A stretch of 64,000 bases of DNA from positions 1-64,000 of the forward strand of contig JANXRZ010000240.1 in NCBI GenBank assembly GCA_025352885.1. The letters run 5' to 3'. Source of the DNA: Pseudomonadota bacterium. Lineage in GTDB: Bacteria; Pseudomonadota; Gammaproteobacteria; Burkholderiales; SG8-39. How positions within the stretch are numbered: the stretch's first letter is position 1; every line of letters begins with the position of its first letter. Positions 3 to 63,940 of the stretch are shown here, piece after piece. Position numbers and translations under genes: made by a program. The notes under the pieces are model-generated. The model had not been told where the DNA came from, did not search any database, and saw only the letters and a list, made by a program, of their open reading frames with translations.

Positions 3-1610
3 TCGTCGAACCCGAGGACTTACTTCTTCGATGGCCCGATTGGCGTGTACACCCTCGATTCGAACAAGGACGGCAAGCTCGGCCTGACGAATTGCGCAGC
101 GGGCACGTCGATCGACTGCACTTCGAACGGCGACAAGGTGCAGCTGTTCGTCGGGATGCGCCGGGGCGGCCGCACGATCTACGCCCTGGACGTGACTGAC
201 CCCACTACGCCCAAGCTGTTGTGGAAGAAAGGCTGTCCTAACCTGGGAAACAACACCGGATGCGACACGGGCTACAGCGAACTCGGCCAGACCTGGTCGG
301 AGCCGAAGCTCGGCTACCTACGCGCTTTCCCCAACAAGCTCGTGCTCATGTTCTCGGCCGGGTATGACCCGACGGTGGAGGACTTCCAGCCTTGCGTGAT
401 TACAGCCTGGGATACGACGTCCGTCACCGGCATCAAGAACGTGGTGTTTCCGCAGCCGATGAATTCGACGAATTGCCCGCCGGCGGGAACGGGGACGCAG
501 GTGAACCGCAGCATGGGTCGAGGCATCTTCATCGTCGACGCCGCCGATGGCACGGTGCTGTGGCGCGCAGGCTCCGATGCGGCTGCTGCCACCGACGGGA
601 AGCTCGTGAGTGGCATGACGTACTCGATGCCAGCGGACCTGGCCGTGCTGCGCAACCGCTCGAATACGGCGAACCGGGTCAATACTGTGACCGGGACAGA
701 GAACGTGCCGACCGGCTTCCTCGACCGCATCTATGCAAGCGACACGGGTGGCCAGGTGTGGCGGATAGACGTGGCGAACGCGAATACGGCGCAGTGGACG
801 GTAACCAAGCTCGCGTCCATTGCATCGACCACCGGCACACCGTCGGCAACCAACATGCGCAAGCTCATGTTCCCGCCCGACGTGGTGTACACGAGTGACG
901 GGATCGGGGATTTCGATGCCGTAGTGCTGGGGAGCGGCGACCGGGAGCACCCGTTCGACCAGGTTGTGCAGAACCGCTTCTACATGTTCAAGGACCGGTA
1001 CACGACCACTATCACGCCTGCGATGTTGCTCGTGCCAGCCACGACGCCTTCCACCATCGGCGACAACAGCACCGACCTCTATGACGTGACGACCAACTAC
1101 CTCTGCCTGCTTGCGAGTTCCACCTGTACCGCCGTACAAAAGACCGCCGCAAGTGCCGGCTTGCTCGCAGCAAACGGCTGGAAGACCGTGCTCAGCAGCA
1201 CGGGAGAGAAAACGATCGCTCCGGCGACCACGGCGGCTGGGTCGGTGATCTTCAATACCAACGAGCCAAAGCAGGACACGGTCACCGGCGTTGCGCAGAA
1301 CGTGGGGGCGAACGCGGGTAATTCCTGCGTATCGGACCTGGGCACTGCCCGGCAGTACGGGATCAGCTTCAAGGACGGAACGCCAACCTATATCTTCAAC
1401 ACGCTGCCCAGCCAGTACGTGCCGACTTCGGGCGGTGGGCGCTTTGCAACCTTCGCCGGCGGCGGATTTCTGCCGACCCCGGTCCCGGTCGTGGTGCAAA
1501 TTGGCGGGAAGTACTACCAGTCGGTTATTTCGGGGGTCACGACGACCAACCCAGGCGGGCTCAAGCTGCAGACGCGGGTACGCACCTACTGGTACAAGAA
1601 AGTCGATTGA
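3..1610 (+). CDS. pilY1: PilY1-type pilus assembly/adhesion protein, C-terminal part (5' end outside window)
   Basis: The frame is already open at base 3, so this is the C-terminal part of a longer gene; the first GTG at 45 is internal. The text matches the PilY1 C-terminal beta-propeller: YFFDGPIGVYTLD at the start, RIYASDTGGQVWRID in the middle and VVLGSGDREHPFD later. PilY1 primes type IV pilus assembly and sits at the pilus tip or outer membrane. An EF-hand-like stretch (DSNKDGKLG) lies near bases 57-83. The calcium loop usual just before the DRIY motif looks replaced by a stretch without acidic residues (about 691-720). In Pseudomonas the minor-pilin/pilY1 operon also lies next to ispH-lspA-ileS-ribF, which supports the call. 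Confidence 0.85.
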   Translation, partial: SSNPRTYFFDGPIGVYTLDSNKDGKLGLTNCAAGTSIDCTSNGDKVQLFVGMRRGGRTIYALDVTDPTTPKLLWKKGCPNLGNNTGCDTGYSELGQTWSEPKLGYLRAFPNKLVLMFSAGYDPTVEDFQPCVITAWDTTSVTGIKNVVFPQPMNSTNCPPAGTGTQVNRSMGRGIFIVDAADGTVLWRAGSDAAAATDGKLVSGMTYSMPADLAVLRNRSNTANRVNTVTGTENVPTGFLDRIYASDTGGQVWRIDVANANTAQWTVTKLASIASTTGTPSATNMRKLMFPPDVVYTSDGIGDFDAVVLGSGDREHPFDQVVQNRFYMFKDRYTTTITPAMLLVPATTPSTIGDNSTDLYDVTTNYLCLLASSTCTAVQKTAASAGLLAANGWKTVLSSTGEKTIAPATTAAGSVIFNTNEPKQDTVTGVAQNVGANAGNSCVSDLGTARQYGISFKDGTPTYIFNTLPSQYVPTSGGGRFATFAGGGFLPTPVPVVVQIGGKYYQSVISGVTTTNPGGLKLQTRVRTYWYKKVD

Positions 1611-49451: not shown

Positions 49452-50572
49452 CGCTCGATTATCCACAATGCGGCGCCCCCTGCGGCCAGCGCGGCGGCCG
49501 CAACCACAAGCGAAGGGCCGAATCCGCCAAGCCATACGACCAGGTAACCGGCGAACGGCGGCCCGATCAATTGCCCGAACCCGAACGAAGCGGTGAGCGC
49601 ACCCATCAGGGGCGCCGCGCTCGTGCGCATCTGTCCGGCCAGGGCGCGCGCACGGTGAAGCGTGAGAAGGGTGATTGCGACGAAGGCCAGACCCAGCAGC
49701 AGGCTTCCGATTGCAAGGCCGATCGCATTGGGAACCACGACCGGCACGATGACGCCCAGCGCTTCGACGAAAAAACAGCCGATCAGCGCGCCCGATGCGC
49801 TCGTGCCCGTAAACCGGCCGAGAAGAAGGGTGCCGGCCAGTGCCGCTGCGCCGAACATCGGCCAGAACCACCCCGATGCGAACGCTCCGCCCAGCAGGTC
49901 GCGCGCAATCACCGGCATGAACGTACCTGGAATGATGTAGCCGAAGCCGTAGAGCCCGTAAGCAACGATCAGCGTCCAGGCGGCACGGTTCCAACGACGG
50001 CTGGTGGTCTCGCCTCCAGGCGCCAAGGTCGCGTCGTGCGCCGGGCCGAACGCCTTCCAGCACAGCGCCGTCGCGATAAGGCTTGCGCTGCCGAACGCTA
50101 TCCAGATCGAGGACGAGTCCATCCCCGCAGCGGTCAGCGCAAGGCACGCAAGGCCGGTGGCGATGATGCCGCACCCCACTCCGCCGAACACGATGCCGAA
50201 GAGCCGCGGGGAACCGGCGCGAGTCAGGCGCTCCAGGCTGATCGCAGCTGCGTAGACGAGCACCCACGCGCTCGCGACGCCGCTTGCAAAGCGCAGCACC
50301 CACCACAGTGCAAATCCGCTCACCAGGCCAACGGCAAGCGTGAGGACACCGGTCGCGACAAGACCAGAGCGGACCATGAGCGACGGTCGCGCCGTCACCC
50401 AGATCGTGGCGAGCGCGCCGACGAGATACCCGAGGTAATTGGCGAAGGCCAGCCAGCTGCCTTCGGTGAGCGTCAGTCCGGAATCGGCCTGCATGAGCGG
50501 CAGGAGCGGCGTAAACGCAAACCGCCCGACACCCATGGCGACGGCGAGGGCCACCAGCCCGGAAAGCGCCAC
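49448..50572 (-). CDS. MFS transporter, YbfB/YjiJ family
   Basis: 374 aa with eleven or twelve membrane segments. The N-terminus (AMGVGRFAFTPLLPLMQ) and LAFANYLGYLVGALA are the YbfB/YjiJ signature; GFGQLIGPPFAGYL comes near the end. The start is GTG. Translational coupling to ggt suggests the transporter handles a product or substrate of the gamma-glutamyltransferase, such as an amino acid or peptide (inference). Confidence 0.88.
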   Translation of the reverse strand: MALSGLVALAVAMGVGRFAFTPLLPLMQADSGLTLTEGSWLAFANYLGYLVGALATIWVTARPSLMVRSGLVATGVLTLAVGLVSGFALWWVLRFASGVASAWVLVYAAAISLERLTRAGSPRLFGIVFGGVGCGIIATGLACLALTAAGMDSSSIWIAFGSASLIATALCWKAFGPAHDATLAPGGETTSRRWNRAAWTLIVAYGLYGFGYIIPGTFMPVIARDLLGGAFASGWFWPMFGAAALAGTLLLGRFTGTSASGALIGCFFVEALGVIVPVVVPNAIGLAIGSLLLGLAFVAITLLTLHRARALAGQMRTSAAPLMGALTASFGFGQLIGPPFAGYLVVWLGGFGPSLVVAAAALAAGGAALWIIER

Positions 50573-61197: not shown

Positions 61198-61540
61198 CCG
61201 ATTGGTGCGAAGCGAGCGCGTCCGCGCTGATCACGATGACCGGGTCCTTGCGCTCGCCTCCCGCCTGCCGCAATGCATCGGACAGCGCGGCAACGTTAGT
61301 GAACTTGACTGGCGTCTTGCCGATGACGTACTGGCCGGCGGCATTCACCAGCACCGAAATCTCGTTGGGACGCTCGAGCTGCTTTTCGGCGTCCGCCGTC
61401 GGCAGGTTGATCTGCAGCTCGGTGTACTTGGAATAAGTCGTCGTGATCATGAGGAAGATCAGGATCACCATCATGACGTCGATCAGTGGAACCAGGTTGA
61501 TCTCCGGCTCCTCCCTGACCCGGCCCGGGCGGAATTTCAT
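61121..61540 (-). CDS. exbD: Biopolymer transport protein ExbD/TolR
   Basis: 139 aa. One N-terminal membrane helix with the proton-pathway Asp (INLVPLIDVMMVILIFLMI) and a periplasmic C-terminal domain. It works with ExbB to energise TonB or Tol-type outer-membrane processes. The ATG overlaps the exbB stop (ATGA). The 3' end overlaps the extended lpxK frame. Confidence 0.95.
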   Translation of the reverse strand: MKFRPGRVREEPEINLVPLIDVMMVILIFLMITTTYSKYTELQINLPTADAEKQLERPNEISVLVNAAGQYVIGKTPVKFTNVAALSDALRQAGGERKDPVIVISADALASHQSVVRVMEASRLAGYAQITFTTQAAGK

Positions 61541-62166
61541 TTGGCCGGGGCGGCCTTGAAGTCGGCGCGCGCGCCATGGACGATATCGACCAGGCGAGCG
61601 GCCGCGCGTTCCATATCGACGACGAACCCGTCGACCTTGCTCCGGAAATGGCGGTAGAAAATCAGCGAGGGGACCGCAATGCCGATGCCGAACGCCGTGT
61701 TGTAGAGCGCGATGGAAATGCCCTGGGCGAGCTGCTGCGGGTTGGTGCCCGTCGGTCCTTGCGAACCGAAGATCTCGATCATCCCGATCACCGTGCCGAA
61801 CAGTCCGAGCAGCGGCGATGCGGAGGCAATTGTGCCGAGCGTAGTCAGGAAGCGCTCGAGATCGTGTGCGGCGCTGCCGCCGGCCTCCTCGATGGCCTCC
61901 TTCATCACTTCGCGGGGACTGTTCACGTTGCGTAACCCCGCCGAGAGCACCTGCCCGAGCGGGGAGTCCTGCGAAAGCTTGTCGAGGACGTCCGGCGTCA
62001 CGCCCTGCCGTTGATAGACCGTCACGACTTCGTTCAGGAGCGTCGGCGGCACGATCCGGTTCCTGCGCAGGCTGACCGAACGCTCGATGATGAGGGCGAC
62101 CGCGATGATCGAGGCGAGCAGCAGCGGGTAAATCGGCCAGCCGGCGGCCTGGATCATGGCGAACAA
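61537..62166 (-). CDS. exbB: MotA/TolQ/ExbB proton channel family protein
   Basis: 209 aa with three membrane helices. GTIASASPLLGLFGTVIGMIE contains the conserved TolQ/ExbB motif, and GISIALYNTAFGIGIAVPSL the third helix with its conserved Thr. It forms the proton channel with ExbD. No tonB is adjacent, so the partner could be a distant TonB or a Tol-like system. It heads the exbB-exbD-lpxK-Trm112-kdsB unit and lies 499 bp from divergent xseA. Confidence 0.95.
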   Translation of the reverse strand: MFAMIQAAGWPIYPLLLASIIAVALIIERSVSLRRNRIVPPTLLNEVVTVYQRQGVTPDVLDKLSQDSPLGQVLSAGLRNVNSPREVMKEAIEEAGGSAAHDLERFLTTLGTIASASPLLGLFGTVIGMIEIFGSQGPTGTNPQQLAQGISIALYNTAFGIGIAVPSLIFYRHFRSKVDGFVVDMERAAARLVDIVHGARADFKAAPAK

Positions 62167-62665
62167 ATCGGTTCTCCCTGTTGGCTTCTGGACGCTCGGC
62201 GCATGCCGGCGTCAGGGGCGCACTTTAGCCAATGCCACCCTGCCCGGCAACATGCTGCGCTGCTTCAAAGGCGTAGGCCGAGTGTCTCAGATCGGACCCT
62301 CCACGTGCGCCAAAATTGCCGGCGCGAGGCGCGCAAAATGCGGGCCAAGGCTGTTATCCACAAAACCTGTGGATAAGTTTGTGGATTGTGCTTGTACAGT
62401 TGCCCTTTTACCTGCCAAGCGGCGCGCACCAATCGGCGTGATTAAAATTTCACCGCCAAATATTTGCCTCTAAACAAGCTGTTGTGACTAAGAATGGGCC
62501 TCCGCGGGCGACGCACAGTCATTGTGTGCGCCCGGCCTCAAAAGTGTGGATTAGTCAAGCGCCGGCAATCGAAAAGCGGTTGAAAAATGCGGGCTTATGT
62601 GAGTGTGCGGACTACACGTGTAAGCAGGGGCGTGGGATAGACTCCGGGCGCTTGGAACGCCTGCC
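62167..62665. other. 499-bp gene-free region between divergent exbB and xseA
   Basis: No supportable gene lies here; short open frames have no family signature. The region is richer in A+T than its surroundings, especially about 62441-62475 (GATTAAAATTTCACC, CCAAATATTTGCC). It contains four DnaA-box-like 9-mers. Both exbB and xseA promoters must also lie here; no strong -35/-10 pair is seen by eye. Confidence 0.7.
62354..62388. promoter_or_regulatory. Cluster of DnaA-box sequences
   Basis: TTATCCACA (62354-62362) and TGTGGATAA (62368-62376) are two perfect consensus DnaA boxes in inverted orientation, 5 bp apart. TGTGGATTG (62380-62388) follows, and TGTGGATTA lies further on at 62545-62553. 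Binding by DnaA is inferred from sequence only. Confidence 0.65.
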
Positions 62666-63940
62666 GTGAGTACTCGACCAACCATGTTCGATCCACCCAT
62701 CCTGACCGTTTCGGAACTCGCCCGCGGCGTGCGCGACCTCCTCGAGCGGCGCTTTCCGCTCGGATGGGTCGCCGGCGAAATCTCCAACTTCAAGCGCTAT
62801 GACTCCGGGCACTGCTATTTCACCCTGAAGGACGCCGGCGCCCAGGTGCGCTGCGTCATGTTCCGCAGCCGGTCCCAGTACATGGACTGGCAACCAAAGG
62901 AGGGCATGCAGGTCGAGGTCCGCGCCCTGGTCACCCTTTACGAGCCGCGCGGCGACTTCCAGCTGAACGTCGAGACCATGCGGCGGGCCGGGTTGGGACC
63001 GCTCTACGAGCGCTTCCTCCGGACGCGGGACGCGCTGGAACGCGAAGGCCTCTTCGACCCCGCCTCCAAGCGCGCAATCCCGCTCTTCCCAAAGACGGTG
63101 GGCCTCGTCACTTCGCTTGCCGCGGCGGCCCTCCAGGACATGCTCACGACATTGAGTCGCCGCAATCCCTCGATCAAAGTCGTCGTATACCCGGTTCCCG
63201 TGCAAGGCGAAGGCGCTGCGGCGCGCATTGCCGCCATGCTTGCAACGGCCAGCCGACGCAACGAGTGTGAAGTCCTGCTCCTCGCCCGAGGCGGCGGATC
63301 CATCGAGGACCTCTGGCAGTTCAACGAGGAAGTAGTTGCGCGCGCGATCCGCGCATGCGGCATTCCCGTGGTCACCGGGGTCGGGCATGAGACCGACTTC
63401 ACGATCGCCGATTTCGCTGCGGACCTGCGCGCGCCGACGCCTACCGCCGCAGCCGAGGCAGTGAGCCCTTCACGCGATGCGCTTTTCGCGCGTCTCGGGG
63501 AATTGGTCGAGCGTTCAACGCGAGCTGCGTTGCGCCGGATCGAAACCGAACTTCAGCGCGTCGACGGATACGGGCGGCGCCTCGTGCACCCGAAGGCGCG
63601 GCTGGCCGCGAGCGGCCGCTTCCTCGAGCAGCTGCGCGCACGCCTGGCCGCTGCCCGGCCGGACCTGCGAGCACTCGAGCGGGAGCGCTCCGAGCTTCTT
63701 CGGCGCCTCGACTTCGCCGTCCGTCGCAATCTCGAGCGACCGGCCCAGCGCTTACATACCTTGAGAGCAAGCCTGGCGAGCCTCGATCCCACTGCAGTCC
63801 TTGCGCGCGGCTACAGCCTTACGCGCAACGCGAAAGGCGAAGTGATCCGCGATGCCACGACGCTCGTCACCGGCGAGACCTTGACCACGCATTTTTCTCG
63901 CGGGCGCGCAACGAGCGAGGTCAAGACGCTAGGCGAGTGA
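62666..63940 (+). CDS. xseA: Exodeoxyribonuclease VII large subunit
   Basis: 424 aa. The N-terminal OB domain (LTVSELARGVRDLLERRFPLG, then WVAGEISNFKR and GHCYFTLKD) is followed by the catalytic region (VGLVTS, LLLARGGGSIEDLWQFNEE, VTGVGHETDFTIADFAAD) and a helical C-terminus. With XseB it degrades single-stranded DNA. The start is GTG 62666; ATG 62684 is possible. In Burkholderiales sodB usually lies on the far side, just outside this window. Confidence 0.96.
   Translation: MSTRPTMFDPPILTVSELARGVRDLLERRFPLGWVAGEISNFKRYDSGHCYFTLKDAGAQVRCVMFRSRSQYMDWQPKEGMQVEVRALVTLYEPRGDFQLNVETMRRAGLGPLYERFLRTRDALEREGLFDPASKRAIPLFPKTVGLVTSLAAAALQDMLTTLSRRNPSIKVVVYPVPVQGEGAAARIAAMLATASRRNECEVLLLARGGGSIEDLWQFNEEVVARAIRACGIPVVTGVGHETDFTIADFAADLRAPTPTAAAEAVSPSRDALFARLGELVERSTRAALRRIETELQRVDGYGRRLVHPKARLAASGRFLEQLRARLAAARPDLRALERERSELLRRLDFAVRRNLERPAQRLHTLRASLASLDPTAVLARGYSLTRNAKGEVIRDATTLVTGETLTTHFSRGRATSEVKTLGE

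Follow-up and report, generated by a model that had tools for sequence, protein, structure and literature searches.

Among the described systems, those that stand closest to the element considered here are the DnaA-reactivating sites of E. coli, DARS1 and DARS2, whose primary description reportedly dates from 2009. According to the cited passages of PMC5742627, the spacing of DnaA boxes I to III is identical at the two sites, box I opposes boxes II and III, and the head-to-head contacts between DnaA molecules on boxes I and II are the prominent DARS feature. A passage of PMC8682772 agrees on the opposing boxes, and ChIP-seq in E. coli, as excerpted from PMC11317965, indicates that DnaA prefers tandem boxes 2-3 bp apart. 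On the distribution of such sites, an excerpt of PMC10380432 states, citing another paper, that DARS1- and DARS2-like sequences are conserved in many proteobacteria, and PMC5742627 refers in the part cited to E. coli-proximal beta or gamma species. The excerpt of PMC4245941 describes the DARS2 core plus Fis as a specific property of E. coli-related gamma species, a statement that counts against the DARS reading developed below, and the portions of PMC12371093 and PMC13220808 cited here treat DARS in E. coli.

The three boxes of the E. coli DARS1 stretch (bioD-uvrB) read TTATCCACT-5-TGTGGATAA-3-TGTGTATTA, the numbers being spacers in bp. At DARS2, where the core was located through the deletion primers printed in the part of PMC4585315 cited, they read TTATTCACC-5-TGTGGATAG-3-TGTGAAGAA. 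We scanned five E. coli stretches for this geometry, allowing at most three summed mismatches in boxes I and II and requiring TGTG at box III, and the scan matched exactly DARS1 and DARS2. No core was found by the same scan in the other three, the E. coli datA (6 kb), oriC and priA stretches, nor at the two dnaA loci of the assembly that contains our element.

A DnaA-box module between exbB and xseA

The element lies near the end of a 64,000-nt stretch of DNA, hereafter the window, in which a sequence-only reading had pointed out two perfect inward-facing DnaA boxes 5 bp apart (62354-62376), two near-matches (62380-62388 and 62545-62553) and an AT-rich stretch beside them. All of these are real, and the AT-rich stretch contains a Fis-like and an IHF-like site. 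The window carries every part of what we call the module, namely the three-box core, the Fis-like site, the IHF-like site and box IV, and together they take up the whole span that the reading had marked (62354-62553, about 200 bp). The features are as follows, with offsets counted from the start of box I:

62354..62362, + strand: DnaA box I, TTATCCACA, perfect
62368..62376, - strand: DnaA box II, TTATCCACA, perfect, facing box I across 5 bp
62380..62388, - strand: DnaA box III, CAATCCACA on the - strand, two mismatches, tandem to box II across 3 bp
62440..62454, no strand assigned: predicted Fis-like 15-mer, GATTAAAATTTCACC, at +86
62472..62484, + strand: predicted IHF-like site, AAACAAGCTGTTG, one mismatch to WATCARNNNNTTR, at +118
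62545..62553, - strand: DnaA box IV, TAATCCACA, one mismatch, tandem to boxes II and III, at +191
62167..62665, no strand assigned: exbB-xseA intergenic region with the module, 499 bp
62666..63940, + strand: xseA, exodeoxyribonuclease VII large subunit, the downstream neighbour (NCBIfam TIGR00237, 455 bits, cut-off 180)
61537..62166, - strand: ExbB/TolQ-family proton channel gene, the divergent neighbour (matches to the NCBIfam models tolQ and exbB, short of the cut-off of each)

Fis and IHF sites were scored against general consensus strings, one of which, WATCAAnnnnTTR, is also printed in the part of PMC10380432 cited. Read on the + strand of the window, box III is TGTGGATTG, 3 bp past box II, and box IV is TGTGGATTA; the layout of 62354-62388 is TTATCCACA / 5 bp / TGTGGATAA / 3 bp / TGTGGATTG.

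Eight DnaA-box matches with at most one mismatch occur in the window, against a mean of 2.8 and a largest value of 7 in 100 shuffles. The only other perfect box of the window stands isolated at 49459-49467. Across the 4.88-Mb, 294-contig assembly the genome-wide box count that the sequence-only reading had proposed gave only 10 perfect single boxes (7 for the reversed-pattern control), so that 62354-62388 appears as a special place rather than as a by-product of a box-rich genome. An inward box pair with a spacer of 0-12 bp is found a single time in the assembly, and the three-box pattern CACA-N5-TGTGGATAA-N3-TGTG is likewise single-copy, even when two mismatches are allowed.

The exbB-xseA interval had also been called the longest gene-free region of the window, a description that holds at the level of a crude codon-usage gene call: three gaps exceed 499 bp, but long ORFs occupy two of them and a 104-aa ORF reduces the third to 225 bp, the ORFs being judged by eye. 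Rfam models found nothing in the window at their gathering scores. A BLASTN comparison of 61500-63900 with plasmid records was set aside; the best 20 of its 24 matches fall on the xseA or the exbB part of the query.

The element shares with DARS1 an intergenic position, a box I that opposes boxes II and III, and the 5-bp and 3-bp spacers. DARS1 also has a relaxed Fis-like 15-mer at +86, one of four within 260 bp, and, at +203, a tandem box with a single mismatch; these matches may be due to chance or may be the trace of a common plan. It differs in that no IHF consensus with at most one mismatch lies within 260 bp of its core start, and in that it adjoins uvrB. DARS2, in the rppH-mutH region, has the same core spacing and, downstream of the core, IHF and Fis sites and further boxes. 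Its order is core-IHF-Fis, near mutH, as deduced from site-shift experiments in the cited passages, including those of PMC4245941, whereas the window element, with its non-coding three-box core and predicted Fis and IHF sites given by consensus at fixed offsets, runs core-Fis-IHF-box IV and lies next to xseA. IHF-like sites stand at +93 and +109 in DARS2, Fis-like sites at +145 (strict) and from +186 (relaxed), and a perfect box at +211 is oriented opposite to the box IV found at +191 in the window. By eye, the DARS2 region also contains a degenerate second 5/3 unit, TTATCCCAG, TGTGGATAA, GGTGTAAGA (L036:1452-1486).

Conservation upstream of xseA

Conservation of the boxes in relatives, another check that the sequence-only reading had proposed, was followed in a sample built from the XseA matches in 57 of 61 genomes of the window's family and in 143 of 150 genomes drawn evenly over its order, which together make 195 distinct genomes. 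A core was counted at xseA when it lay within 700 bp upstream with at most two summed mismatches against TTWTNCACA, and the upstream stretches of all 195 were read, one of them (L146) being too short upstream for testing. Such a core is present in 134 of the 195 genomes and in 39 of 49 families: 49 of 57 genomes in the window's own family and 85 of 138 in other families, or 89 of 143 when the order draw is taken by itself. Drawing genomes evenly over families only softens the effect of relatedness. The spacer between boxes I and II is 5 bp in 134 of 195 loci and 17 bp, the distance from box I to box III, in 93, and any other value from 0 to 30 occurs in at most 14; in the reversed sequences of the first 176 loci no spacer occurs more than once. 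Of the 134 core loci, 123 have TGTG at the offset of box III. Under the mismatch limit 61 of the 195 xseA loci lack a core (the one too short among them), including every locus of 10 of the 49 families, although in two of these ten (f2 and f40) some loci have the exact three-box pattern with a poorer box I.

Genome-wide, CACA-N5-TGTGGATAA-N3-TGTG was found in 107 of 150 order genomes, against none of 150 for the reversed control. The 126 of these 150 genomes whose xseA loci were read first hold 162 three-box cores; 71 sit no more than 1.3 kb upstream of xseA, all in one orientation, and 17 further order genomes added seven more near xseA in the same single orientation. The exbB-core-xseA layout also occurs in Sulfuritalea, Propionivibrio, Nitrosomonas ureae and a Rhodocyclaceae MAG, which suggests that the order sampled corresponds to the Betaproteobacteria-like Burkholderiales of GTDB. 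One genome carries three successive three-box cores within 1 kb upstream of xseA (L224, G056:C1:249540-250477).

Two other search patterns were discarded. A TAAG motif tied to boxes II-III was badly chosen and gave no match in 41 family genomes. The perfect palindrome alone was found in 40 of 300 order genomes, and since it also catches sites without box III (for example L008-L010) the three-box pattern was adopted afterwards. The latter sites, in small genomes of family f31 (L008, L009 and L010), are perfect 23-bp DnaA-box palindromes that lack box III and, by eye, lie near an apparent tRNA end; the three f31 loci read are coreless at xseA.

When the loci are aligned on the core, conserved columns extend to about +130. 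A G..C 15-mer with an AT centre stands at +85/+86 in 112 of the 134 xseA core loci. The shuffle controls, which control for composition and not for ancestry, were done on the first 128 of these 134 loci (the core loci among the first 177 xseA loci), and in them the Fis-like 15-mer at +85/+86 was found 107 times, against a shuffle mean of 3.75 and a maximum of 7 in 60 shuffles; a stricter Fis consensus was found 59 times against a mean of 0.37. The exact IHF consensus lies at +117..122 in 28 of the first 128 (shuffle mean 0.02) and in 29 of the full 134. With at most one mismatch allowed, the IHF consensus is present at this place in 96 of 134 loci; for the first 128 the count is 92, the shuffles giving 0.98 on average and 4 at most. 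Box IV, in tandem with boxes II and III, lies at +188..197 in 76 of the 124 loci that are sufficiently long, and in 72 of the first 119 testable loci against a shuffle mean of 2.1 and a maximum of 5. All three extra parts are present in 58 of 119 xseA loci, and two or more in 99 of 119.

A second address at priA

A scan of named genomes with the pattern TTATCCACA-N5-TGTGGATAA-N3-TGTGNAT gave at least 118 stretches, and among those listed a PriA match was found in 50, an XseA match in 8 and neither in 60. The groups rest on a tblastn match within the fetched stretch, which is not always the adjacent gene. Pfam confirmed the identity of PriA for four representatives, and NCBIfam did so for three. 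Among the matches listed, 27 loci, including seven from the window's order, have a PriA-cluster protein as the adjacent gene on the box-I side. Modules upstream of priA are found in Gammaproteobacteria and some Betaproteobacteria (e.g. L246, L261, L264, L297, L223 and L234). A few stretches labelled Alphaproteobacteria or Actinobacteria (for example L277, L300, L303, L311 and L351), in which the core may reflect chance or mislabelling, were kept in the remaining, 'other' group.

The priA module resembles the xseA module in its core, its Fis-like site at +85/86, its IHF-like site at +117-122 and its fourth tandem box. Among the matches listed that were usable for each test, the Fis-like site is present in 40 of 48 priA loci (shuffle mean 1.15) and the IHF-like site with at most one mismatch in 37 of 48 (0.40), at the same offsets; in the 'other' loci listed the figures are 30 of 59 (1.68) and 29 of 59 (0.73). 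The priA module is unlike the xseA module in two respects. In 43 of 48 priA loci among the matches listed, box IV is found at +200..206, mostly at +203-205; this is 12 bp, roughly one helical turn, farther out than at xseA (+191-195). The other respect is that priA lies on the box-I side of the module, whereas xseA lies on the box-IV side. A box at either box-IV place is found in 29 of 59 'other' loci, and all three extra parts are found in 33 of 48 priA loci and 17 of 59 'other' loci, again among the matches listed.

At three priA loci from the order (L223, L234 and L236) the gene opposite priA belongs to one cluster, identified as HemE by Pfam on L223. In six named loci (L252, L276, L281, L288, L307 and L324) the core adjoins a single protein family, radical SAM and HemW-like by Pfam and NCBIfam on L252, and the HemW-like neighbour is possibly a third recurrent address.

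Proposed DnaA reactivation and the competing readings

The sequence suggests that the element is probably a DARS-type DnaA-reactivating site upstream of xseA, and on the best reading its layout, core-Fis-IHF-box IV, would be a new DARS-type arrangement that differs from E. coli DARS2. The sequence-only reading had offered a datA- or DARS-like site as one option, and of this the DARS half is supported because the 5/3 spacing is common to DARS1 and DARS2 and because the module is widely conserved. By analogy with the E. coli sites we infer protein binding, release of ADP and a role in the cell cycle. Two ADP-DnaA molecules would bind head-to-head on boxes I and II and a third DnaA on box III; IHF, bending the DNA at about +118-130, Fis at +86 and a DnaA on box IV would hold together a complex from which ADP is lost, and the resulting apo-DnaA would then take up ATP, giving more initiation-competent ATP-DnaA before the next round at a distant oriC. 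The assembly encodes components for such a scheme: hda scores 205 bits when both pieces are counted (cut-off 194.8), and a 79-aa frame that matches HTH_8 with 50.7 bits (cut-off 22) is Fis-like and adjoins what by eye is a PurH-like frame. Against the DARS reading stand the single mismatch of the window's IHF-like site, the two mismatches of its box III, a Fis-IHF order unlike that of DARS2 and the 61 of 195 xseA loci in which no core was counted.

The steady xseA address within the order also counts against the DARS reading, for it could reflect transcriptional control. The boxes, Fis and IHF would then form a promoter-regulatory complex through which DnaA controls xseA (or exbB) and ties exonuclease VII to replication, an option that the sequence-only reading had raised and that we regard as rather unlikely. 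Box IV lies a median of 57 bp before the estimated xseA start at the xseA sites, and 15 of the 128 core loci keep the core beside xseA with no exbB detected in the stretch read, both of which favour such control. The proposal is weakened by the occurrence of the module with priA (a PriA match in 50 of the 118 stretches listed), where the box-I end faces the gene, and at other loci in Beta- and Gammaproteobacteria, which makes a mere xseA promoter unlikely. The parts hold their distances at unrelated genes, with priA on one side and xseA on the other, so that a self-contained nucleoprotein site is likelier than a promoter. Promoter and terminator scans over 62100-62760 found neither, and the absence of a sigma-70-like promoter from this crude scan argues in the same direction.

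A datA-like site, which would titrate or inactivate DnaA by binding it together with IHF and so lower ATP-DnaA, is unlikely. In its favour, intergenic DnaA boxes and an IHF site are ingredients of datA as well in the cited passage of PMC5742627. However, the 6-kb E. coli datA stretch lacks the I-5-II-3-III core that DARS1 and DARS2 possess, and four boxes are few for titration; this half of the datA-or-DARS proposal finds no support in the comparison of cores.

The sequence-only reading had correctly placed dnaA away from the window. The gene was found on contig C267; a perfect box precedes its likely start, and what by eye is a dnaN-like frame follows it. A second dnaA-like frame, 88.9% identical to that on C267 and cut at a contig end (G000:C218:18701-19193, L002), perhaps reflects a strain mixture or contamination, the contamination of the assembly being 5.21%. 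The window's own genome is fragmented; in 24 relatives assembled in one to three contigs, a set that includes genomes without a core at xseA, the distance from xseA to dnaA is 0.083-0.495 of the replicon, with a median of 0.325. A chromosomal replication origin separate from dnaA, the remaining option, is suggested by the AT-rich stretch that adjoins the box cluster and is nonetheless very improbable, because dnaA has its own upstream box on another contig, xseA and dnaA lie far apart in each of the 24 relatives measured, the core is absent from the E. coli oriC stretch, the element has no origin-marker neighbours, and the skew does not switch near 62 kb or anywhere from there to the end of the window (with only 1.4 kb following, this test is weak).

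Among the papers listed in a literature search, no title or opening of an abstract describes a DARS-type site at xseA or priA or a core-Fis-IHF-box IV layout, which is no proof of absence. The regeneration of ATP-DnaA has so far been described, in the parts of the literature cited here, for E. coli and its near relatives. A broader proposal, on which our judgement is evenly balanced, is that the four-part module (core, Fis at +86, IHF at about +119, box IV at +192 or +204) may serve generally to recharge DnaA in Beta- and many Gammaproteobacteria, with xseA as its address in one order and priA as the more widespread one. On this view E. coli DARS1 and DARS2 would be rearranged relatives of it, and DnaA reactivation would long predate the E. 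coli group and extend far beyond it. The offsets would set sequence constraints on the reactivating complex, namely a 5/3 core, a Fis-like site at +86, an IHF-like site at about +119 and box IV at +192 or +204. With the module at known addresses, xseA and priA, in well over 100 genomes, the idea of DnaA reactivation as a general cell-cycle device of proteobacteria becomes directly testable.
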